Origin: Bacteroidales bacterium
GTDB taxonomy: Bacteria > Bacteroidota > Bacteroidia > Bacteroidales > WCHB1-69
NCBI GenBank assembly: GCA_017649855.1
Contig: JAGCGA010000029.1
Coordinates: 18,508 to 82,507, forward strand
Reading direction: 5' to 3'
DNA: 64,000 bases
This document shows positions 35,361-48,161 of the stretch, one piece after another. Position numbers and translations under genes: made by a program. Every line of letters begins with the position of its first letter. Within the stretch, counting starts at the first letter, position 1. The notes under the pieces are model-generated. The model ran no database searches. It saw nothing but the letters and a program-made list of their open reading frames with translations, and was not told the origin of the DNA.

Positions 35361-35368
35361 TACATTTG
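35361..35368 (+). promoter_or_regulatory. Promoter -7 box for the second CHU_C gene
   Basis: TACATTTG, 18 nt before the ATG at 35387. It excludes an upstream start at 35366 that is in frame. Confidence 0.65.
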
Positions 35369-35386
35369 CGGTGTTGTTTTGTTACT

Positions 35387-38209
35387 ATGAAAAAGTTTGT
35401 ACTCTTTTTGTCGTTTTTGCTGCTGACTTCGTTGCTCACTGCGCAGAGCGAAGTGCTGATGGGCAGCCAGACGGTCGTCACGAACTGCTCTTTCCAGATT
35501 CATGACGACGGGGGTGCGACGGGTAACTATTCGGCCAACGCCCATCAGACGCTGACCATCTTCTCCAACGATCCCTCCAATGCGAGCGTGATGGTGGAGG
35601 TGCAGACCCTGGACATAGACCCGTCCGACACGCTGATCTTCTATGACGGCACTGACACCAACGCTGCAGTCTTGCACAAAATCAACAACAGCAACTACGA
35701 TCCTACCGGCACCTTCCGCTATGCGGCCACCATTCAGAACACGACGGGGGCGGTGACGGTATATTTCAAGTCGGACGCGACGGCGGGTGGGGGAGGCTTC
35801 ACCCTCTTCGCCTCCTGCATGGCGCCCTGCCAGCGCATCTTCCTGGAACTCGACAGCGCGCTCTGCTCCAAGCTGCCGCACATAGATACCGACGGCTATT
35901 ACTACCTGGATGTCTGTCCGTATGACACCGTCCACCTGGCGGTGAAAGGTATCTATCCCGACAACAACTTCAGCTATAATCAGAACGACGCCACCACCAC
36001 CTTCCACTGGGATTTCTTCCTGGACGACATCGATTCTGTCGGATGCAACCAGCTGGACTACTACTTTATCCCGGGCCGCGGCTATGACGTCTCGGTGACG
36101 GCGGAGGACCAGGCCCAGTGCGTGTCTTTGATTCCGATCGCCTTTCGGGTGCGCACCTCTCAGAACCCCATCAGTCATGTGGTCACGCCCTATCCGTTCT
36201 GCTCCGGCGATGAGCAGCTGCTGAGCTATGGCTATGACCAGGTCTCCAATGTGCAGCTCGACATTGTGGGAAGCGAACAGATCACCTCGCTGGGCGTCTC
36301 CGACACGGTCTTCCTGCCCGACGGCGTGAGCTGTCCTCCGTATGGCTACTACTACCGCTCCTATGTGAACTTCACCTCCTTTGCGCCCAATGCCACCATC
36401 ACCAGTCCCAACGACATCCTGTATGTTCGCATCAAGATGGAGCACTCCGCCATCGAGGATATCCGCATCACCTTCGTCTGCCCGACCGGCAATGTGTGCC
36501 GCATCGTGCCCGACTATCAGAACGACGGCTGGGGTGGCATCTCTCACTATTTCAGGACGAACCTGGGTGTTGCCAATCGTCAGCAGGAAGTGGCTACCTG
36601 CAACGCCAGCCAGAACCCGATGGGCATCCCGTGGAACTATGTGTGGTCCAACAACACCACCCTGGGCTATCAGTATGCCAATACCACCTATGGCTATTGC
36701 TATGAGCCCGGAAACGTGCAATATACTGCCAACCCCTACTGGGATGACGGCAATATGTCTTATAAGATTGACTCCACCGATGTGGCGAACATGACCCAGG
36801 TCTATCATCCCAACCAGTCGTTTGCCGGCATGGTGGGCTGTCCCCTCAACGGGGCTTGGTACATCCAGGTGCAGGACCTCTGGTCTAACGACAACGGCTA
36901 CATAGTGGAGTGGGAGATGGCCCTGGACCCGGCCCTGCTGCCGCAGAACTGGTCGTATGATGTGCAGGTGGACACCACCTACATCATCGGACCGGGCGCA
37001 TACGGGTCCAGCGTCAACCCGGACACCTCCGGCACGATCCAGTACACCTACCGCCTGATCGACGAGTACGGCTGCGTGTACGATACTCTCATCCCCTTGG
37101 AGGTATATCCCTCCCCGAACCCCGACCTGGGATCGGACATGGGCCTTTGCCATGGCGACCTGCTGGTGCTGGAGCCCAGCATGAACGTGACGGACTCCAA
37201 CACGGTCTATCACTGGAGCACGGGCGACGAGACAGCCTCCATTGCGGTGCTGACGGACGGGGACTATGCCCTGACGGTCACCTCCACGTTCTACGACACC
37301 ACCGGCGTGCTGGCCTGCACGGGGACAGACACGGTCCATGTGCAGGTCTTCGAGAGCCCGGCCCTGGAGTACGAGAACACCGTGGTGGAGGGGTGTGCGC
37401 CGCTGACCATCCACGTGACCAACCACTCCACGCCCGCCAACGCCGACTTTGAGTGGCTGGTGGTGGACCCCGACTTCCGTCTGGTCCAGAGCTCCCACCA
37501 GTACGAGCCGACCTTCGAGATCGAGGAGCCGGGCCATTATACGCTATGCTTGAGGGTGACGACTCAGGACGGCTGCGTGGACTCGATCATCCGCTGGGAC
37601 TATATCCGCGTCAACGTGCAGCCCATCGCGGAGTTCGCGGCCACGCCGGAGATCTCGCTGATGGCGGAGACCCAGGGCCAAGTGGCCTTCACCAACTACA
37701 CGGAAGAGTCCATCCTGACCGACCCCGCCAACAGCTTCTACTGGGACTTTGCCGACGGAGAACTTGACTCCTCCACTGTGTCGCCGGTGCACACCTTTGC
37801 CCAGTGGGGCGATTACAACGTGACCCTCCATATTGAGACGGAGGACGGCTGCAATAGCGAGATTGCCCACACGGTGGTCGTCGAGCAGGACCTGATCTTC
37901 CCCAACATCATCACGCCGAACGGGGACGGCATCAACGATGTGTTCGCGATCCAGAACCTGAACACGAACATCGACGAGGAGGATCCCGACGAGTACCGCA
38001 CCAACAAGCTCTACATCTACGACCGCTGGGGCAAGCAGGTGTATGCGGCCAAGAACTACGACACCTACGCGCGCGACGGGCAGATCATGCTGGGCGAGCA
38101 GTACTTCGACGGCGCCAACCTGAGCGACGGGGTCTATTACTACAGTTTCTACTACAAGGGCAAGGCCAAGACGGTGAACTACAACGGGTCGCTGACGATC
38201 GTGCGATAA
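35387..38209 (+). CDS. Second CHU_C surface protein, paralogue of the preceding one
   Basis: 940 residues. Same layout as 32429-35299: signal peptide (MKKFVLFLSFLLLTSLLTAQ), CUB-like (CSFQIHDDGGATGNYSANAH, DTLIFYDGTD), beta domain, P-like domain (NDILYVRIKMEHSAIEDIRI to NGAWYIQVQDLWSNDNGYIV), PKD, CHU_C. It is clearly more GC-rich than its neighbour, so the two are old duplicates or came from different backgrounds. The last 350 bases resemble the end of the gene at 45708 more closely than that of its neighbour, suggesting gene conversion at the 3' end. Function likely adhesive. Confidence 0.88.
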   Translation: MKKFVLFLSFLLLTSLLTAQSEVLMGSQTVVTNCSFQIHDDGGATGNYSANAHQTLTIFSNDPSNASVMVEVQTLDIDPSDTLIFYDGTDTNAAVLHKINNSNYDPTGTFRYAATIQNTTGAVTVYFKSDATAGGGGFTLFASCMAPCQRIFLELDSALCSKLPHIDTDGYYYLDVCPYDTVHLAVKGIYPDNNFSYNQNDATTTFHWDFFLDDIDSVGCNQLDYYFIPGRGYDVSVTAEDQAQCVSLIPIAFRVRTSQNPISHVVTPYPFCSGDEQLLSYGYDQVSNVQLDIVGSEQITSLGVSDTVFLPDGVSCPPYGYYYRSYVNFTSFAPNATITSPNDILYVRIKMEHSAIEDIRITFVCPTGNVCRIVPDYQNDGWGGISHYFRTNLGVANRQQEVATCNASQNPMGIPWNYVWSNNTTLGYQYANTTYGYCYEPGNVQYTANPYWDDGNMSYKIDSTDVANMTQVYHPNQSFAGMVGCPLNGAWYIQVQDLWSNDNGYIVEWEMALDPALLPQNWSYDVQVDTTYIIGPGAYGSSVNPDTSGTIQYTYRLIDEYGCVYDTLIPLEVYPSPNPDLGSDMGLCHGDLLVLEPSMNVTDSNTVYHWSTGDETASIAVLTDGDYALTVTSTFYDTTGVLACTGTDTVHVQVFESPALEYENTVVEGCAPLTIHVTNHSTPANADFEWLVVDPDFRLVQSSHQYEPTFEIEEPGHYTLCLRVTTQDGCVDSIIRWDYIRVNVQPIAEFAATPEISLMAETQGQVAFTNYTEESILTDPANSFYWDFADGELDSSTVSPVHTFAQWGDYNVTLHIETEDGCNSEIAHTVVVEQDLIFPNIITPNGDGINDVFAIQNLNTNIDEEDPDEYRTNKLYIYDRWGKQVYAAKNYDTYARDGQIMLGEQYFDGANLSDGVYYYSFYYKGKAKTVNYNGSLTIVR

Positions 38210-38453: not shown

Positions 38454-38483
38454 TTTGGCAAGTTCAATATTTTTGTACTTTTG
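38454..38483 (+). promoter_or_regulatory. Promoter of the riboswitch-controlled gene
   Basis: TTTG (38454-38457), 18 bases, TACTTTTG (38476-38483); an alternative -7 box TATTTTTG overlaps just upstream (38468-38475). RNA would start near 38490, right at the riboswitch. Confidence 0.75.
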
Positions 38484-38487
38484 TTGC

Positions 38488-38660
38488 GGATTATTGGTGA
38501 GGGACGAATGGTCCCGAGAGGGAATCAGGTGAGAATCCTGAACAGTACCCGCTGCTGTGATTTCCAACCAAGTCTTTGCGCAAGATGCCACTGTGTTTGT
38601 TTATGGGAAGGCGCGCAAAGATGGAATAAGTCAGAAAACCTGCCAGAGTTCTTTTAGGAG
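38488..38660 (+). promoter_or_regulatory. Cobalamin (B12) riboswitch
   Basis: Conserved aptamer pieces in the right order and spacing: GGGAATCAGGTGAGAATCC (about 38520-38538), GAACAGTACCCGCTGCTGTG (just after), ATGCCACTGTG (38585-38595), GGGAAGGCGCGCAAAGATGG (about 38605-38624) and the B12 box AGTCAGAAAACCTGCC (38629-38644). Together these are the core of the cobalamin riboswitch family, which binds adenosyl- or hydroxo-cobalamin and lowers expression. A leader of about 110 bases follows to the ATG at 38771. I see an AGCTT...AAGCT stem after the aptamer (about 38663-38680) but no clear terminator, so control may be at translation. Confidence 0.9.
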
Positions 38661-38770
38661 AAAGCTTCGGGAGGTAAGCTGACACTGCCACATACATCAT
38701 CGTGTACGGTTTTGTTGACATTTTTCCCGGGCATGACGACGGGAATTATTGTCAAACTAAAAAATATACG

Positions 38771-41700
38771 ATGATGAAAAAGCTACTTTTTGTTTTAGGT
38801 TTGTTGAGCCTTATCTGCTTGTCTATGGAGGTGCGGGCTCAGAATGTCTGGAACGGCACGGCCGACATTACGTGGTACGATGCCAGCCAGACCAGTTTTA
38901 ACATCACCACGGCGGAGCAGTTGGCGGGCGTGGCGCAGTTGGTGAACAACGGCACCACGACCTTCAACGGTGTGACGTTGAACCTGATGAACAACCTCTG
39001 GCTCAACGCCACGGGCGACTCCACGAACAACTGGGTGCCCATTGGCGGCGGTTCGCCCACGGGCGAGTCGCCAGAGACGGGCTATTCTTTCCAAGGCCAG
39101 TTTAATGGTCACGGGCACACCATTTATAATTTGTATTGCGACAAGGGCAACACCTATCATGCGGGTCTTTTCTGCTCTGTCAAAAACCCCTCGACCATTG
39201 ATTCCCTGGTATTAGTCAACCCTGTGTTGAAATCCAAAGGTATGATGGGTGCCATTGTCGGGTTTACCCGTGCTGGCGGGCAAGTGTACATCCGGAACTG
39301 TATGGTGATTAATGCACGTATAGAAGGATCAAACGGCAATAATATCGGTGGTATTATTGGCGCATCCTACAACAATTCAAGTGGCAACTATGTGCAGAAT
39401 TGTGGCGTCACGGGTTATGTGTCCGGCAATTATATTGGTGGTTTGGGTGGCAACGCGGATTATGAGCATTTCACCAACTGCTACTTTGCAGGTACGCTTT
39501 GCAGAGTCGGGAGCAATGCGGGTAGCCTATACGCTTGGTCCAGTTTTGGTAGTTGCAGCAATTGTTATGCATCCTATACCTTTGTTTGCGGAAGTGGCAG
39601 CAGCAACGGCACCGCGGTTTCACAGGATATTATGCAATCTGACAGCATGATTACCCTTCTGGGCGGCGCCTTTATAAGAGACTGTGGCTTGAATGACGGC
39701 TATCCTATCTTGTCGTTTATGGCGGGCCTCTCTCCGACCACCGCAGAGCTCTGCGTCGGGGAGAACGTGACCTTGTCGGCCTATGGCTATTCTTCCTATC
39801 TCTGGAGTACGGGTGACACGACAGCGGAGATCACCGTGGCTCCTACCACTACCACTACTTATACTGTCTTGTGCTTCTCCATTACAGGCGATACGGATAC
39901 CCTTTCCTCCACCGTTACCGTCTATCCCCAGGCAGTCATCACGGCTGAAGTCATGCCAACTTCCGATGGTGTGACGCACGCCACGCTAAACCAGAGCAGC
40001 TTCACAGTGCCGTGTGGCGGCTCTGATGCCATTACGCTGGTGGTCACGCCCGATGTCAACTATCGTGTGGTCAAGGTGACGCTGAATGGCACCCCTGTCT
40101 ATGGCGATGAGTTTGGGGAAGGTGTGGCCAATATCATGCTGTTTCCCGGTGGAACCTTGGGAGAAGCGAAAGTTTATGTGGACAACAACTATACGGTTAC
40201 AACTACCGCTGTGGATGTGAATGGAGATACGATTGATGCTTCCGCTTTGGTGGTTCCTTACGGCGCTAATGGAGTCTATTCAGTGTTTGCCAGCGACTCC
40301 CTCGTGATGAGCTTCAACAACACGGCACGTTGGAAGTTGACGGATGTGGAGGTAGACAACATTTCCGTCGGTTTAGTGCCCACTTACACTATATATAATG
40401 TACACGAGAACCATACAGTCTTGATTACATATGTAGATAGTTGCGGCATCTATTCCATTCCATTTTTTGAGGATTTCGAGTCTGTTTCCAGTGGTCTGCC
40501 GGATTGCTATGAGAAAAACAATGCAAACAGCAATTATCCGAGAGTCAGTACCTCTTCTGCTTATCAAGGTCGCTCTTTGTACACCTCTAACTATCAATAT
40601 GATGATAATGCCACCAATGTACCTTGTCTGATTCTGCCTAAATTAAGCGACCAATTAGATTTGTCAGCTCTAATGCTCCAATTCTACGGAAGGATTTCTT
40701 CAACAAACGGATACTTTGTGGTAGGTGTCATGACCGATCCTACGGATATGTCCACATTCACTGCATTGCAAACCGTCACTCCTGCCGCTGCTTCCTCCTA
40801 TGAGTTGTGTACAGCTTATTTTTCCAACTATCAAGATACCGGACGTTACATTGCCATCAAGATCGCAGCGACCAGCTATTGTACCATGAATATTGACAAC
40901 TTGACTATCGATTATGCCCCGCAATGCTCTCCGATTTCCAACCTGCAGGTTGACTATATTTATGGCACCAATGCCACTTTGACGTGGAGTCCTACCATCG
41001 TTGGAACGCCTGATCAGTATCATCTGATTGTCACAGACTTGTCGCAATCCACAATTACCACGTTCACTACCACAGACACTACCTATTTGTTGACGGGCTT
41101 GTCGGAACAGACCCCCTACCAGGTCAGCATCTACACAGCTTGTACCAATGGACAGACTAGTGATACTGTATCAGTCTCTTTTACAACCATCTGTAATTCC
41201 ATGTCCAGTGTTACGGTGGCTGCTCCGATTAGCAGCAGTTACAACAACAGCCTTCCTGCTGACGATTGTTATCAATATGGTTATAGCCAACAGATAATAC
41301 TGGCATCTGAGTTGGGCAGCGATTCTGCTTCATTTACCTCTCTTTCTTTCCAATGTGCCTCCGGCTCTGGGGTGCGCCACTGGGATATCTATGCTGCCCA
41401 AGTGACCAATTCCTATATTATGGATTGGATTCTTCCCTCTGAGACCGTGATTTTCCATCATATTTTCTCTGGTAATGTGACTATAAGCGGCACAGGCCCT
41501 GACCATTGGTTTGATATCCAACTGGATTCTGCACTCCAGTACAATGGCACTGACAATATTCTTCTCTCCATTGCTGTTGACAATCTCAACACTGATTGCA
41601 GTATTTCGTATTATTGTCATGCGGATGCTAACTGGAACTATATCAGTCTTTCCGATATGAATGATAGCTACCCATATTCTTACACCAATCCTATGGCCTC

Positions 41701-44700
41701 TTCAGAAGGTTATGCAGGTGTGTTGCCTATTGCCAACAACATACGCTTCAGCTCTTGTCTTCAAGAGAGTTGTGTCCGTCCCAACACGCTTGTCGCTTCC
41801 AATGTGACCTCCAATTCTGCAGACGTCAGTTGGGTGTCCGCAGGTGCGGAGACATCTTGGGAGTTGCAATACAAAGCCTCTACGGATACTGGTTGGACGT
41901 CTCTAGACAACCTTACCTCTAACCAGTACTCTTTAACAGGACTGCAATCCAACAAAGAATACAGCATACGGGTAAGAGCTTTATGCTCCGCCACAGATGT
42001 CAGCATGTGGAGTGATATAACCATTTTCCACACCGAATGCGGCACCATTGCTATTTTGCCGTACACGGAAGACTTTGAGGATGCCAACAATTTGTATAAC
42101 AGCAGCCAACAGAACTACATCTATTGCTGGTACCGCTATGCTTCTGATCCTTCCCACTATGTATATATCCCAAGTAACAACCATGCTCACAGCGGTTCGC
42201 GCTTCCTGGATTTCCACCATACCAACAACTGTTTCAATATTGCCATTATGCCGGCAATTGATCCATCGTTGAATATCAATGATCTCCAAGTACACTTCTA
42301 TGCCTGCAAATCTGGTAATACGGGCACTCTGGAAGTGGGTATGATGAGCGACTATGACGATCCTACCACCTTCGCCCCCATTGACACCATCGACTTGTCT
42401 TCTTATGCTACCTATGCATACGCATCCTTGTATGTCTCTTTGGCAAACTATACAGGTGATGGCTATCATGTCGCCTTCCGCGTGTCTAATGCCATCAGTT
42501 GTGGTTATTATATTGATGACATCACGGTGGAGGAGATCCCCGAATGTAACTTCCCCACCAACCTGCATGCCTCCAACATCGGCCCGGATGAGGTGACCTT
42601 GACTTGGGATGCCAGCAGTAGTGCCAATGAGTATGGCTTATATCTGATTGGCAATAACGAAACCGTCTATTATGTTGTATATGACACGACCATTACGATC
42701 AACAACCTTCTTCCTGCCACTTCATACAGTGCCTCAGTTCGTTCTCTTTGTGGCAACGACTCATCCATATTGTCCACCGAGTGTCCCTTCATGACGGGTT
42801 GTGATGCCATTACCATCTCAGCAGGCAATCCCTGGACGGAAGGTTTCGAATCCTACACGAATGTGGGCGGTAGCCAGATCCAGCCGTTCCTTTGCTGGGC
42901 CCGCCCTGTGGTAGATAATGCTTACCAAGGCTCTCCATTTGTGTATGTGAATTACTCCTATGCCGCTCATACAGGTTCTAATACGGCCCAATTCAAGGGC
43001 ACCACATCTATGCTGGCCCTCCCGGAATTCACCAATGACATCCATGACTTGCGACTCTCCTTCTGGGCTACTGCTACGATTCCTTCAGTCAGCCATATTG
43101 AGGTGGGTGTCATCACCGATCTGGATGATCCGACCACCTTCGTGCCCTTGGCTGATGCCGGAACCCCTGGCCCCAGAGGCCACGGTGGTAACTTTATGGG
43201 ACCGTTTGACTTTGACACCATCAGTGTGACGAGTGGTCGAATCGCCTTGCGCTATACCAGCTCCAATGCACCCGAGTCCTGTAACTTGGATGACTTTACG
43301 GTGGAGCTGATCCCCGATTGTCCTTCTCCGGAGAAAGACAGTGTGACAGTTTCCAACATTGGAAACCATACGGCAACCATCAGTTTTGTGGATCATGATG
43401 CCACGCACACCGAGTGGGTGGTCTATTACAGAGCCTCAGCTGACACGGTTTGGAATACCATGACCACAACCACCACGACGGTTGACCTGACCAACCTGGA
43501 TGCCCAGACCACCTATTATGTGTATGTGGAGACAGCTTGTGCACCTGGAATGGTTGCAGATGCCACCTTCACGATCCATTTCACTACCTTGGTGGCCTGC
43601 CCAGCACCTGTCGGCGTGACCGTTAACAATATCAATACTACCTCTGCAACTGTCAACTGGAGTGGCAACGCCTTGTCCTATGTCCTTGAATACGGTCCTT
43701 CCGGCTTCACTCCCGGAACCGGCGAAGGAACCGTTGTGACTACCGACAGCAATGCCTATGACATTTCAGGGCTGACTCCGACAACCGGATACACGGTATA
43801 CATATATGCCGATTGCGGGGACGAAGGATACTCCTCCATGATCTCTCGCACCTTCACCACCCTGGATGCCTGTCCGGCACCCACTGGCGTGACCATTTAC
43901 GGTATCACCAGCTCCTCTGCCTCTGTCACATGGAATGGCAACGCCACGAATTATATCATTGAATACGGTCCTACCGGCTTCACCCCTGGCGACAGTACAA
44001 GCACTATGGTGACCACAAGTGCCAATATTTACGATTTCACGGGTCTGATCCCGGCCACTGGATACACGGTGTATATCAAGGCGGATTGTGGAACTGACGG
44101 ATACTCCTCCAGCACCTCCACCACGTTTACCACCGAATTGTGCGATCCTGCTGACAAGTGTTCCTACACCTTTACCCTGACCTCTAGTCATAACGCTTGG
44201 CTAGGCCACACACTCAGAGTGACGCAGGGTGATGTTGTTGTGGCAGTTCTCTCTTTTGCTCCTCCTGCCAACACTTACACCACCACTGTTGACTTGTGTG
44301 ATAACATCCCTGTTTCCTTAGAGCACATTGTTGGAGGTGGCGTGCCTTTCCACATGATGGGTCACCCGTCTGGAATCACGGTTGCGAAACCGGACGGCAC
44401 GGTAGAGTACTCGACTACTGACATGGATAACTACACGACCTACACCTTTACACCTAATTGTAATGCTTCAATTCCTGACACTTGCGAAGTGCCGACGGCT
44501 TTGGCTGTGAACAACCCGGGTCAGACGACGGCCACGGCCACGTGGACCGCTGGTGGTGCCGAGACCTCCTGGAACGTGGAGTATAAGGCTGTATCCGCCA
44601 CTGTATGGCAGAGTGCCACCACCAATGCCACCTCCTTCGCCATGACGGGTCTCACCCCCAACACCCAATATGAAGTGCGCGTGCAGGCCGTGTGCGACAC

Positions 44701-45298
44701 CGACAACACCAGCGACTGGACTGCTTCGGTCACCTTCACGACAGAAGAAGAGCAGCAGACCTGTCCCGCCCCGACCAACCTGACGGCCGCCTTGGATGAG
44801 GACAACCACACGACGGTCATCCTGACCTGGCAGCAGGAGCCCAACACGGCTACCGAATGGCAAGTCAACTACCGTCAGACCACGGAGAGTGAATGGACGT
44901 CCACAACTGCCAATGCTACAACCCACACGCTGACCGACCTCGTGCCTAATGTGACCTACGAGTTCAACGTGGTGGCCCACTGCACCAACGGCCTGACGAG
45001 CGATGAGTCCAACACTGTGACCATCCAGACCGACAATGTGGGTGTCCAGAACTGGCTGGAGAAGAGCGTGACGCTCTATCCGAACCCGGCGACGGAGATG
45101 GTGAGCGTCGAGATCAGCGACGCCAACATCATGATCACGGGTGTGGAGGTTTATAATGTCTATGGTCAATTGATCAACACGATCGTGAGCACGGAGAACC
45201 CGTTGCGCATCAACGTCAGCGGCCTGGCCGACGGCATGTACTATGTGCGTGTCACGACGGACGGCGGCGTGGTGACGAAGAACTTCGTGAAGAGATAG
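38771..45298 (+). CDS. Giant T9SS surface protein with GLUG, Fn3 and MAM-like domains, B12-riboswitch controlled
   Basis: 2,175 residues from ATG 38771 (a second ATG follows at 38774). The open frame starts at 38702, but that part is riboswitch leader. Order: signal peptide (LICLSMEVRAQ); GLUG-like repeats (GAIVGFTRAGGQVYIRNCMV, GGIIGASYNN, GGLGGNADYEHFTNCYFAG; about 130-245); Ig-like (about 320-390); three jelly-roll MAM/cleaved-adhesin-like domains each opening with FFEDFES, YTEDFED or WTEGFES and closing with a (I/L)D(N/D)(L/I/F)T strand (about 560-710, 1095-1260, 1350-1515); about eight Fn3 domains, two of them internal duplicates (about 1610-1790); and a T9SS type A end (LYPNPATEMVSVEISDANIM, GMYYVRVTTDGGVVTKNFVK). 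A surface binder or adhesin. The B12 riboswitch suggests a link to corrinoid capture or to a corrinoid-dependent lifestyle; not provable here. Confidence 0.88.
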   Translation: MMKKLLFVLGLLSLICLSMEVRAQNVWNGTADITWYDASQTSFNITTAEQLAGVAQLVNNGTTTFNGVTLNLMNNLWLNATGDSTNNWVPIGGGSPTGESPETGYSFQGQFNGHGHTIYNLYCDKGNTYHAGLFCSVKNPSTIDSLVLVNPVLKSKGMMGAIVGFTRAGGQVYIRNCMVINARIEGSNGNNIGGIIGASYNNSSGNYVQNCGVTGYVSGNYIGGLGGNADYEHFTNCYFAGTLCRVGSNAGSLYAWSSFGSCSNCYASYTFVCGSGSSNGTAVSQDIMQSDSMITLLGGAFIRDCGLNDGYPILSFMAGLSPTTAELCVGENVTLSAYGYSSYLWSTGDTTAEITVAPTTTTTYTVLCFSITGDTDTLSSTVTVYPQAVITAEVMPTSDGVTHATLNQSSFTVPCGGSDAITLVVTPDVNYRVVKVTLNGTPVYGDEFGEGVANIMLFPGGTLGEAKVYVDNNYTVTTTAVDVNGDTIDASALVVPYGANGVYSVFASDSLVMSFNNTARWKLTDVEVDNISVGLVPTYTIYNVHENHTVLITYVDSCGIYSIPFFEDFESVSSGLPDCYEKNNANSNYPRVSTSSAYQGRSLYTSNYQYDDNATNVPCLILPKLSDQLDLSALMLQFYGRISSTNGYFVVGVMTDPTDMSTFTALQTVTPAAASSYELCTAYFSNYQDTGRYIAIKIAATSYCTMNIDNLTIDYAPQCSPISNLQVDYIYGTNATLTWSPTIVGTPDQYHLIVTDLSQSTITTFTTTDTTYLLTGLSEQTPYQVSIYTACTNGQTSDTVSVSFTTICNSMSSVTVAAPISSSYNNSLPADDCYQYGYSQQIILASELGSDSASFTSLSFQCASGSGVRHWDIYAAQVTNSYIMDWILPSETVIFHHIFSGNVTISGTGPDHWFDIQLDSALQYNGTDNILLSIAVDNLNTDCSISYYCHADANWNYISLSDMNDSYPYSYTNPMASSEGYAGVLPIANNIRFSSCLQESCVRPNTLVASNVTSNSADVSWVSAGAETSWELQYKASTDTGWTSLDNLTSNQYSLTGLQSNKEYSIRVRALCSATDVSMWSDITIFHTECGTIAILPYTEDFEDANNLYNSSQQNYIYCWYRYASDPSHYVYIPSNNHAHSGSRFLDFHHTNNCFNIAIMPAIDPSLNINDLQVHFYACKSGNTGTLEVGMMSDYDDPTTFAPIDTIDLSSYATYAYASLYVSLANYTGDGYHVAFRVSNAISCGYYIDDITVEEIPECNFPTNLHASNIGPDEVTLTWDASSSANEYGLYLIGNNETVYYVVYDTTITINNLLPATSYSASVRSLCGNDSSILSTECPFMTGCDAITISAGNPWTEGFESYTNVGGSQIQPFLCWARPVVDNAYQGSPFVYVNYSYAAHTGSNTAQFKGTTSMLALPEFTNDIHDLRLSFWATATIPSVSHIEVGVITDLDDPTTFVPLADAGTPGPRGHGGNFMGPFDFDTISVTSGRIALRYTSSNAPESCNLDDFTVELIPDCPSPEKDSVTVSNIGNHTATISFVDHDATHTEWVVYYRASADTVWNTMTTTTTTVDLTNLDAQTTYYVYVETACAPGMVADATFTIHFTTLVACPAPVGVTVNNINTTSATVNWSGNALSYVLEYGPSGFTPGTGEGTVVTTDSNAYDISGLTPTTGYTVYIYADCGDEGYSSMISRTFTTLDACPAPTGVTIYGITSSSASVTWNGNATNYIIEYGPTGFTPGDSTSTMVTTSANIYDFTGLIPATGYTVYIKADCGTDGYSSSTSTTFTTELCDPADKCSYTFTLTSSHNAWLGHTLRVTQGDVVVAVLSFAPPANTYTTTVDLCDNIPVSLEHIVGGGVPFHMMGHPSGITVAKPDGTVEYSTTDMDNYTTYTFTPNCNASIPDTCEVPTALAVNNPGQTTATATWTAGGAETSWNVEYKAVSATVWQSATTNATSFAMTGLTPNTQYEVRVQAVCDTDNTSDWTASVTFTTEEEQQTCPAPTNLTAALDEDNHTTVILTWQQEPNTATEWQVNYRQTTESEWTSTTANATTHTLTDLVPNVTYEFNVVAHCTNGLTSDESNTVTIQTDNVGVQNWLEKSVTLYPNPATEMVSVEISDANIMITGVEVYNVYGQLINTIVSTENPLRINVSGLADGMYYVRVTTDGGVVTKNFVKR

Positions 45299-45299
45299 G

Positions 45300-45337
45300 C
45301 TGGCTGTTAGCCATTAGCTATTAGCCATTGGCTGTTT
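45300..45337. repeat. AGCYATT heptamers after the giant gene
   Basis: GGCTGTT-AGCCATT-AGCTATT-AGCCATT-GGCTGTT directly after the stop. Confidence 0.8.
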
Positions 45338-45340
45338 CTA

Positions 45341-45447
45341 CTCCCCGGCCTGCGAACATTCCTTTTGCCAGAAAGGGAATTGAGTCATCGCAGGGATGCC
45401 AGTTCCCTTTCCTGGGTGGAAGGGTGCCCGTAGGGCGGGGATTTTTA
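45341..45447. repeat. REP-like unit D (inverted pair)
   Basis: Left arm CTCCCCGGCCTGCG with AAAGGGAATTGAGTC, right arm TTCCCTTT...GAAGGGTGCCC and GGGCGGGGA: two units of the 1729/2010/2550 family facing each other with no gene between. Confidence 0.65.
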
Positions 45448-45532: not shown

Positions 45533-45540
45533 TATCTTTG
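45533..45540 (+). promoter_or_regulatory. Promoter -7 box for the third CHU_C gene
   Basis: TATCTTTG. RNA would begin near 45547, giving a leader of about 160 nt to ATG 45708, or about 53 nt to the earlier ATG 45600. Confidence 0.65.
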
Positions 45541-45707
45541 CAGGCACATTGTCCATAGTTACCTGTTAGCTCTTTGATATCTCGTTTGTAATCGTTGAAA
45601 TGGAACATTTTTGCCCGCTATCGGATAATGGAATTGTAAGAAAAACATTGTTTATTTGCAAAAATAATCATAGTTCTAAATTGATAACTGGAAGTCCTTA
45701 TATTAAA

Positions 45708-48161
45708 ATGTCGAAAGACTCACCCTTTTATACTTTTTCCGTTGTTTTGCGTGGGGGAATATTCTCTCGTTGTGCTCATCTGCTATGGATAGCGATGCTG
45801 CTCATCGGGTGGTTTCCCGCTGCCCGCGCTGCCAGCCATCCAGTGCTCCCGCTCACGGATGTGCACCGCACCTTGGGCGATACCACCTACGTCCAGACGG
45901 GCATCTGCACAGACCAGCTTCCTTATACTTGGAACGGCATCGTCTTCAACCAGCCCGGCACGCAGTCGGTGACGCTCACCGCCTCCGATGGTAGCGATAG
46001 CCTGGTGGTCATGACGCTACTGGTGGGCGAACCCGTTTACCTGACGGTCTATGGCTCCGGCTGTCAAGGGCATCCCTATACCGAACATGGTTTCAACTTG
46101 CCACCCGATAGTCTGGCGAGCGGCACCAATCTGACCTTCGTCCGCACAGCGCCCACCCCTACGGGTTGCGACAGCATCATCACGCTCCACCTGAGCCTGA
46201 CGCCACAGCCTACCATCGTCTCCTCTCCCGACGTGATCCTTGACCCTGGACAAAGTGTGACGCTCACCTGTACGGGTGCCGACTATTATGTATGGTCGCC
46301 TGCCGCTAACCTCTCCAATACCACCTCCTCCCAGACGGTCTGTTCGCCCGACCAGTCGATGTACGTCTTTGTCTCCGGCTACAACACGGGTATCAACCTC
46401 ATCGGCAATGGCGACTTTGAACAGGGCTCCGTGGGCTTCACCAGCAGCTATACCCTCAACAACAACCTCTGGGGCGAGGCGACCTACTACGTGGGGAGCA
46501 ACGCCCAGAACTACCACTCCGATTTTCGGGGAGCCACCGACCACACGACTGGCAACGGCAACTATATGATCATCAATGGGGCCACCTCGCCCGGCACCGT
46601 GGTATGGTCGCAAACCATCCCAGTGACACCTTACACCGACTATGCCTTCTCCACGTGGGTGACCTCTGTGTGTCTGAGCCCGTGGGCACAGCTGCAGTTC
46701 AGCATCAACGGCCAGCAGCTTGGCAATGTCTTCACCGCCCCCTCCCAATATGGTGTCACCAACACCTGGGAACTGTTCTACATCGTCTGGAACAGCGGAA
46801 CCAACACCCAGGCCACCATCTCCATCATCAACCAAAACACGGCTGGTGGCGGTAACGACTTCGGCTTGGATGACATCTCCTTCTTTAAGCTGACCAATTG
46901 TGGCATTACCGATACCATACAGGTACTCGTGCGCCATTTCGAGGATACCGCCATCTGTTCCTATAACCTGCCATTTTCTTGGTATGGCGTCAACTTCACC
47001 GAATCTGACTCCCTGGAGCATATCGTCGTCAACCCCTATGGGGTGGACGATGCGGTGGTGATGAATGTGGAAATCGTGGAGAGCATGAACCCCGACCTGG
47101 GCGAAGACATCTACCTGTGCCAAGGCGACATGACAGTGCTGTCGCTGGACAGTGTGCCGCAAGATGTCTCTATCCTCTGGAATACGGGCGATACTACCAG
47201 TAGCATCTATGTGCTTGCGGACGGTGTTTACGATGTGAGCATCATCGGCACCTCTTCCAATGGCCGATACCAGTGCGCCGGGCACGATACAGTACGGGTC
47301 ACCTCGGTGCCACAACCCCAGATAGATTTCGAGTCAGGACCTCTGCAGGGTTGCGTGCCCCTCTCGGTGCACATCACCGACCATAGTACTCCCGACTCTT
47401 GCTACTATGAGTGGTATCTCTATGATGCGAACGGCCAGGTGGCCTATGCATCCATCGATGCGAGCCCGACCTTCGACTTTACCGAGCCGGGTGTCTTTTC
47501 GTTGTTCCTCCGTTTATCCACGCCCTACGGTTGTGTCGATTCCCTGTATGTGCCTCACTTCATAGAGGCTAACTTCCAGCCCACAGCGGATTTCGAGGCC
47601 TCTCCCGAGATCTCCCTGATGGCTGAGACCAATGGCGAGGTCGTTTTCACCAATTATGCCGATTCGGTCATGTCGTCAGGCGCAGGTGTCATCTGGGACT
47701 TTGGCGATGGGACGATGGACAGCACCACTTTCTCGCCTGTGCATACCTACACGCAATGGGGCGACTATGTCGTGACCCTCAGCATCGTGACCTCCTCGGG
47801 CTGCAACAGCGAGATCGCCCACACCGTGGTCGTCGAGCAGGACTTGGTGTTCCCCAACATCATCACCCCGAACGGGGACGGCATCAACGACGTGTTCGCG
47901 ATCCAGAACCTGAACACGAACATCAACGAGGAGGACCCCGACGAGTACCGCACCAACAAGCTGTACATCTACGACCGCTGGGGCAAGCAGGTGTATGCGG
48001 CCAAGAACTACGACACCTACGCCCGCGACGGGCAGATCATGCTGGGCGAACAGTTCTTCGACGGCTCCAACCTGAGTGACGGGGTCTATTACTACAGCTT
48101 CTACTACAAGGGCAAAGTCAAGACGGTGAACTACAATGGATCGCTGACGATCGTGAGATAA
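45708..48161 (+). CDS. Third CHU_C surface protein with carbohydrate-binding-like jelly roll
   Basis: 817 residues from ATG 45708 (MSKDSPFYTFSVVLRGGIFS), chosen because a signal peptide follows directly (LLWIAMLLIGWFPAARAA). The frame is open from ATG 45600, which would add 36 residues without signal character. Domains: two short Cys-containing repeats (ICTDQLPYTWNGIVFNQPG; ICSYNLPFSWYGVNFTES), a jelly roll like CBM4/9 (NLIGNGDFEQGSVGFTSSYT to GNDFGLDDISFFKL, about 227-395), PKD-like domains (VIWDFGDGTMDSTTFSPVHT) and the CHU_C end (FPNIITPNGDGINDVFAIQN). A surface protein that may bind glycans. Confidence 0.85.
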   Translation: MSKDSPFYTFSVVLRGGIFSRCAHLLWIAMLLIGWFPAARAASHPVLPLTDVHRTLGDTTYVQTGICTDQLPYTWNGIVFNQPGTQSVTLTASDGSDSLVVMTLLVGEPVYLTVYGSGCQGHPYTEHGFNLPPDSLASGTNLTFVRTAPTPTGCDSIITLHLSLTPQPTIVSSPDVILDPGQSVTLTCTGADYYVWSPAANLSNTTSSQTVCSPDQSMYVFVSGYNTGINLIGNGDFEQGSVGFTSSYTLNNNLWGEATYYVGSNAQNYHSDFRGATDHTTGNGNYMIINGATSPGTVVWSQTIPVTPYTDYAFSTWVTSVCLSPWAQLQFSINGQQLGNVFTAPSQYGVTNTWELFYIVWNSGTNTQATISIINQNTAGGGNDFGLDDISFFKLTNCGITDTIQVLVRHFEDTAICSYNLPFSWYGVNFTESDSLEHIVVNPYGVDDAVVMNVEIVESMNPDLGEDIYLCQGDMTVLSLDSVPQDVSILWNTGDTTSSIYVLADGVYDVSIIGTSSNGRYQCAGHDTVRVTSVPQPQIDFESGPLQGCVPLSVHITDHSTPDSCYYEWYLYDANGQVAYASIDASPTFDFTEPGVFSLFLRLSTPYGCVDSLYVPHFIEANFQPTADFEASPEISLMAETNGEVVFTNYADSVMSSGAGVIWDFGDGTMDSTTFSPVHTYTQWGDYVVTLSIVTSSGCNSEIAHTVVVEQDLVFPNIITPNGDGINDVFAIQNLNTNINEEDPDEYRTNKLYIYDRWGKQVYAAKNYDTYARDGQIMLGEQFFDGSNLSDGVYYYSFYYKGKVKTVNYNGSLTIVR

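Follow-up and report, generated by a model that had tools for sequence, protein, structure and literature searches.

A cobalamin riboswitch upstream of a giant adhesin-like gene in a Bacteroidales genome and its kinship with the leaders of transcobalamin-like genes

Why would the gene of a giant adhesin-like surface protein stand under a cobalamin riboswitch? The question is raised by a 64,000-nucleotide stretch of a Bacteroidales bacterium (assembly GCA_017649855.1, contig JAGCGA010000029.1, positions 18,508 to 82,507; hereafter the window), in which a cobalamin aptamer lies directly upstream of a gene whose product ends in a sorting domain of the type IX secretion system (T9SS). Riboswitches of the cobalamin class are known to act as OFF switches with their ligand. 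We consider it probable that the window holds a working OFF switch that would confine the giant T9SS adhesin to corrinoid scarcity, and that its leader is kin to the leaders of transcobalamin-like secreted proteins.

The preliminary description of this DNA had placed a complete B12 aptamer at 38488-38660. The window was scanned with cmscan at the Rfam gathering thresholds, and RF00174 was the sole match in the 64 kb. The match is full length, its ends fall within 10 bases of the earlier limits, and its score of 90.2 bits compares with a gathering threshold of 31.5 bits, so the covariance model places the element in RF00174 (Table 1). A re-scan within 501 bases returned an E-value of 4.1e-23. 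Thirty-nine named pairs, written from the window's copy, were then tested on six homologous aptamers, and 98.7% of the cells were standard-paired. Because the structure was written from the window's copy, the 39 of 39 pairs found there are uninformative, but pairs in which both sides have changed do count. Such compensatory changes, as expected of RF00174, were found in four of the 39 pairs: two occur in the window's copy alone, one is common to both riboswitched giants, and the fourth is in G060. Slid controls gave none, at least four such pairs arose in 7 of 500 shuffles, and the covariation score was reached in 1 of 500. Just downstream of the aptamer is a P13-like hairpin, which we infer to be the kissing partner of L5 and thus part of the ligand-bound half of the switch.

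Between this hairpin and the gene, a stem can form that masks the start codon. The start codon is pairable in all six homologous leaders, with the upstream arm beginning 77-87 bases before it. The stem measures 12 bp in the window, 10 bp in the second riboswitched giant (G024), and 10-16 bp in the other leaders, with at most one mismatch; 0-7 of 200 shuffles per leader matched it, and the paired bases vary among the leaders. Folding of the segment gave a z of -4.8 for the window, in a fold that contains the masking stem, and -3.4 for the G024 giant; the G060 segment, folded by itself, has another stem in its minimum-energy structure. Taken together, the stem in all six leaders and the segment folds suggest that the switch acts on the start of translation. 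Masking was also tried as a rule for all riboswitches of the genus and was rejected, the mean z being near 0 in most other leader classes, although it was 1.35 in a class of two members. This class-wide score demanded the first codon inside the stem and leaves room for other platforms.

The leader itself has close relatives. From aptamer to start codon, it has 75-78% DNA identity to five homologous leaders, those of a second giant in G024 and of C28-type genes in the window's own genome (G000), G024, G060, and G061. The C28-type genes encode proteins with a T9SS tail and transcobalamin-type beta domains. Among 104 family genomes, the leader DNA was found at six places in four genomes of the genus, two of which are the giants, and four genomes of other genera gave partial aptamer and leader matches. 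The tree of 105 aptamers unites the six leaders in a clade (100/92) in which the two giants are sisters, and the leaders adjoining this clade drive genes with a transcobalamin-like domain; a whole-leader tree recovers the six-row clade firmly (100/99). At the level of sequence, these comparisons show that the leader shares descent with the leaders of T9SS-tailed transcobalamin-like proteins. Giants are ordinary for the genus, with matches to the N-terminal DNA at 30 places in 40 genomes. We infer that a giant adhesin gene already in place acquired its leader as a copy of one that belonged to a transcobalamin-like gene.

Only this gene is probably served by the switch, as had been proposed. The next long forward-strand open reading frame after the aptamer is that of the giant (38774-45298). 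The gene after it starts at 45600, 301 bases past the stop codon, and the gap together with a -7-like TATCTTTG at 45533 makes the giant the probable sole client. Terminator-like sites at ~45322-45439 are no more numerous than in shuffled sequence, and nothing was drawn from them. A length of 2,175 residues, given in the preliminary description, applies to a start at ATG 38771. The likely start is 38774, which shortens the protein by one residue, because the homologous leader of the C28 gene keeps only the second ATG. Of the "full promoter" described before the aptamer, the -7 element TATTTTTG stands; among the five homologous leaders, three have TAATTTTG at the aligned position and a fourth has TATTTTTT. 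A -33 TTTG at the canonical spacing from it was searched for and not found; the two are the Bacteroidetes-type -7 and -33 promoter elements. Neither TAnnTTTG, with one mismatch allowed, within 38640-38776 nor a forward-strand sigma-70-type promoter between aptamer and start codon was matched. The earlier observation holds: neither a sub-threshold covariance score nor a second promoter behind the aptamer, either of which would have refuted it, was seen.

Table 1. Coordinates in the window of the riboswitch, its leader, and the giant protein with its domains.
Feature	Position	Strand	Evidence or comment
Bacteroidetes-type -7 promoter element TATTTTTG	38468..38475	+	motif scan; aligned among homologous leaders
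Cobalamin riboswitch aptamer RF00174, complete	38478..38661	+	cmscan 90.2 bits, E 5.3e-21, model 1-189 of 189
P13-like hairpin AGCTT-CGGGAGGT-AAGCT	38663..38680	+	segment conserved across six homologous leaders
Start-masking stem, 5' arm CATCATCGTGTA	38695..38706	+	12 bp, no mismatch; 2 of 200 shuffles equal
Start-masking stem, 3' arm TATACGATGATG	38765..38776	+	covers ATG 38771 and ATG 38774
Giant protein, 2,174 residues	38774..45298	+	signal peptide by eye, GLUG-like region, Fn3 repeats, cleaved-adhesin-like domains, T9SS tail
Cleaved-adhesin-like (MAM-like) domain 1, residues 562-716	40457..40921	+	hhalign of family to domains 2 and 3, 97.8% probability
Cleaved-adhesin-like domain 2, residues 1093-1255	42050..42538	+	
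Cleaved-adhesin-like domain 3, residues 1344-1515	42803..43318	+	33% identical to domain 2
T9SS type A C-terminal sorting domain, residues 2101-2174	45074..45295	+	PF18962 52.8 bits; TIGR04183 47.8 bits

The GLUG, MAM, Fn3, and T9SS make-up reported for the protein was recovered (Table 1). Its N-terminus is hydrophobic by eye, and the sorting domain together with a T9SS in the genome, judged by SprA alone, marks it as predicted T9SS cargo. The Pfam cleaved-adhesin models did not match: domains 1 and 3 hit no family, and the one hit of domain 2 was to an Ig model, with 12.5 bits where the cut-off is 26. Fold modelling of residues 400-1530 assigned the giant the K-type cleaved-adhesin fold, the 50 fold matches listed being filled by cleaved-adhesin chains, Fn3 chains, and the like. 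It differs from the K1-K3 domains of Porphyromonas gingivalis gingipain in being too distant for Pfam, in lacking a protease domain detectable by Pfam or NCBIfam, and in being preceded by a cobalamin riboswitch.

The idea that the giant carries B12-binding domains fared less well. Pfam found no corrinoid domain in the whole giant or in seven pieces of it, and no family match to a DUF5074/YncE-like propeller of the BtuG type, the protein bearing a T9SS tail instead. DUF4465 (BtuJ-type) was matched by neither Pfam nor hhalign. DUF4430 and the genus WVG-domain were likewise without a match, and at maximum sensitivity a hidden Markov model (HMM) of the genus transcobalamin-like domain gave a best domain score of -1.5 bits. 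A PDB sequence search with two adhesin domains gave only E-values of 0.38 or worse. Chains of BtuH, BtuJ, and BtuG were not among the 50 fold matches listed, a list that one domain type can fill and from which absence is not proof. A hidden corrinoid domain was thus set aside, nothing convincing having come from Pfam, the local HMM, hhalign, or the PDB sequence search; that the giant itself binds corrinoid is possible, without support here.

The genomic setting of the switch is that of a wider cobalamin regulon. The window's genome, 95.5% complete, holds three cobalamin riboswitches. One lies ahead of an anaerobic ribonucleotide reductase (TIGR02827, 977 bits) that co-occurs with the B12-dependent NrdJ; an anaerobic reductase beside NrdJ is a classical B12-free alternative. 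Another precedes the C28 gene, whose 623-residue T9SS-tailed product is the genome's sole DUF4430 match (25.1 bits against 23.8), and the third precedes the giant. CbiD was searched for in this genome and not found. Across the genus, our count covers 105 riboswitch loci, made up of 94 out of 95 listed for G001-G035 with stricter filters that may lose weak matches (one locus, at a contig end, was omitted), three in G000, and eight in G037 and G049, hits in other members of the order lying outside the count. Two loci had no first gene by our rule, and two leaders out of ten G060-G063 hits were added, which gave the 105 leaders of the tree. Classed by motif, their first genes are NrdD (33), transcobalamin-like (33), BtuG-like (22), CoA-transferase-like (4), DUF4465 class (3), HpaB-like enzyme (2), GLUG giants (2), and other (6).

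A T9SS tail was found by local HMM in 34 of the 103 first-gene proteins examined; 28 of these carry the transcobalamin-like domain, 4 carry DUF4465, and the two giants carry neither. The domain without a visible tail is seen in four further members of the transcobalamin-like class, three of which run off the contig and one of which is short. The domain also occurs in the open reading frame after the BtuG-like gene at 12 of the 21 loci having such a frame. The genus likely has a secreted transcobalamin-like system under cobalamin riboswitches. Its C28-type proteins, at L005 (3734-5605, minus strand; the C28 gene of the window's genome) and at L044, L078, L093, L196, L198, and others, mostly have two or more copies of the beta domain and are encoded directly under a riboswitch or after a BtuG-like lipoprotein gene. 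Among the BtuG-like proteins, L065 matches 8blw (E 6e-82) and 8ptf (E 9e-81), named YncE family protein; BtuB1G1 is known as a cryogenic electron microscopy complex (PMC10404256). T9SS-tailed first genes of the BtuJ type were found at L069 (2201-5407), L122 (5524-8733), L125 (547-4443), and L134 (7038-8732), all on the minus strand, with DUF4465 matches of 163-345 bits; at L134 the gene is followed by a 669-residue open reading frame resembling, by eye, a TonB receptor.

How, then, might the switch serve the cell? With the full aptamer directly upstream of the giant, corrinoid binding would be predicted to hide the start codon, the OFF direction following the behavior of the riboswitch class. 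Because of this predicted masking, and because the switch is close kin of those before predicted-secreted transcobalamin-like proteins, the adhesin would likely be displayed at the cell surface only when corrinoid is scarce. There it may help a corrinoid-dependent cell attach where corrinoid is available, be it a place or a partner. We tentatively entertain a bolder form of this proposal, in which capture of the riboswitch lets B12 hunger alone turn on an adhesin that docks to corrinoid producers or to particles rich in corrinoid, or that captures corrinoids through its gingipain-like domains.

Several observations weigh against a selected switch or against the descent proposed for it, and some of them speak for a different history, in which recombination among T9SS genes put the leader on the giant, corrinoid repression brings no benefit, and the switch is being lost. 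Riboswitched GLUG giants are rare, at two of the 30 places with related giant genes (a hand count against the riboswitch lists). A locus in G024 syntenic to that of the window's giant, with the same CHU_C/PKD genes, TolC, and Rnf, encodes a 1,365-residue giant that lacks the GLUG part and the first adhesin domain. In the leader of this sibling, the promoter region and the first ~42 aptamer bases survive, but ~218 bases of core and platform are gone (95.6% identity to the intact G024 copy over 252 bases, then ~218 skipped), so this shorter protein, at least, can do without the control. The window's giant has, in addition, a mosaic structure: it shares 96-99% DNA identity with a G061 giant (L195, contig C35) over residues ~480-1200 and 60-71% over most others, which points, from the alignment, to giant genes of different species having recombined recently; an exchange of this kind could have carried the leader along with no selection for it. 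The branches of the giants are the longest in the leader clade (0.13-0.16 in the aptamer tree, 0.19-0.20 for whole leaders), and their pairing is only moderately supported (93/88 and 81/90). Nesting of the giants strictly inside the four donor-type leaders, as in the best aptamer tree, was not retained, as a grouping of those four with the giants apart is not rejected on whole leaders (p-AU 0.33); the direction of copying is read from outgroups. The masking stem, moreover, is not general in other leader classes (mean z -0.4 to 0.7), and a single-strand fold leaves out the tertiary contacts of the aptamer. Even so, we regard a leader carried along without benefit as rather unlikely: compensatory changes are private to the window's aptamer, both riboswitched giants retain the masking stem, and the riboswitched giant has been kept in two species.

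That the aptamer is a non-functional relic appears very improbable. It scores slightly below the C28 copy of its own genome (90.2 against 96.6 bits), and it has non-standard bases at several outer and P6/P7 pairs of the Rfam structure, but the model is matched over its full length and the double changes preserve pairs. A giant that scavenges corrinoid, with a beta-sandwich or cleaved-adhesin domain binding it and passing it to a TonB receptor, seems to us quite unlikely. Cleaved-adhesin domains are jelly-roll-like, and the adhesin domains of gingipains bind tetrapyrrole. The corrinoid-associated domains of the other 32 T9SS-tailed first genes speak for such a role, as does BtuJ (DUF4465), a beta-jelly-roll (PMC12751083). 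Against it stand the negative searches with Pfam, the genus HMM, and hhalign to DUF4465, the adhesin-type fold matches listed, with the limit already given, and the G061 giant, which is nearly identical over the shared segment and has no riboswitch. The likelihoods of these explanations overlap, as the scavenger shares a working switch with the adhesin displayed under corrinoid scarcity, the reading that we favor.

Some parallels are on record. In Bacteroides, the riboswitch-controlled surface proteins BtuG, BtuH, and BtuJ are B12-binding lipoproteins (PMC6143338, PMC8941943, PMC12751083, PMC10404256, PMC13398666). The giant resembles those of Bacteroides thetaiotaomicron as a riboswitch-controlled surface protein of corrinoid-scavenging Bacteroidota, and BtuG-like lipoproteins also sit under riboswitches in this genus, but the giant is T9SS cargo without a recognized corrinoid domain. 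In Flavobacterium psychrophilum, a cobalamin riboswitch lies upstream of a TonB-dependent transporter (PMC9723704). In Cutibacterium acnes, cobalamin riboswitches precede genes for adhesin fragments and thrombospondin type-3 repeats, whose role is given as unknown (PMC9600381). The arrangement of riboswitch and adhesin-like surface gene is the same there, but the organism is Gram-positive, small adhesin pseudogenes stand in front, and there is no T9SS. Relative to transcobalamin-like SLBB/DUF4430 proteins (PMC1796856), the giant lacks the domain, and the companion protein has a T9SS tail and tandem beta domains. As a member of RF00174, the window's element has the complete aptamer and a leader able to mask the start codon, but its target is adhesin-like rather than a transporter, a biosynthesis gene, or a B12-free isoenzyme. 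Searches of an open-licence library turned up no report of a T9SS adhesin under a cobalamin riboswitch, an absence that is no proof. The earlier suggestion of a new kind of target for a B12 switch is partly supported.

If the favored reading is true, corrinoid control would reach beyond uptake and isoenzyme choice to attachment at the cell surface, in a lineage with named relatives from the rumen and cecum of water buffalo. The case would also show a riboswitch leader spreading to a new gene; the intact copies can be compared with a sibling whose core was deleted naturally. The genus-wide T9SS-tailed transcobalamin-like proteins under cobalamin riboswitches are a likely secreted counterpart of the Bacteroides lipoprotein system.

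Other features of these loci were noted. The riboswitch remnant of the G024 sibling, at ~8180-8700 of L226 (contig C7), is joined to the 3' end of the leader before the shortened giant gene. The syntenic locus has no giant in G010, G001, or G061, and the G060 contig ends before it. At L039 and L054, whose aptamers are divergent in the tree, a riboswitch precedes an HpaB-like enzyme gene followed by what is by eye a CoA-transferase-like gene; NCBIfam matches for this pair were all below cut-off. Riboswitches also precede CoA-transferase-like genes at L041, L092, L110, and L132. To our knowledge, neither kind of gene is a usual cobalamin-riboswitch target. Within the window, two paralogous PKD/CHU_C T9SS genes lie on either side of the giant (35366-38209 and 45600-48161); their 3' ends are ~82% identical, and the identity runs on into the intergenic DNA.
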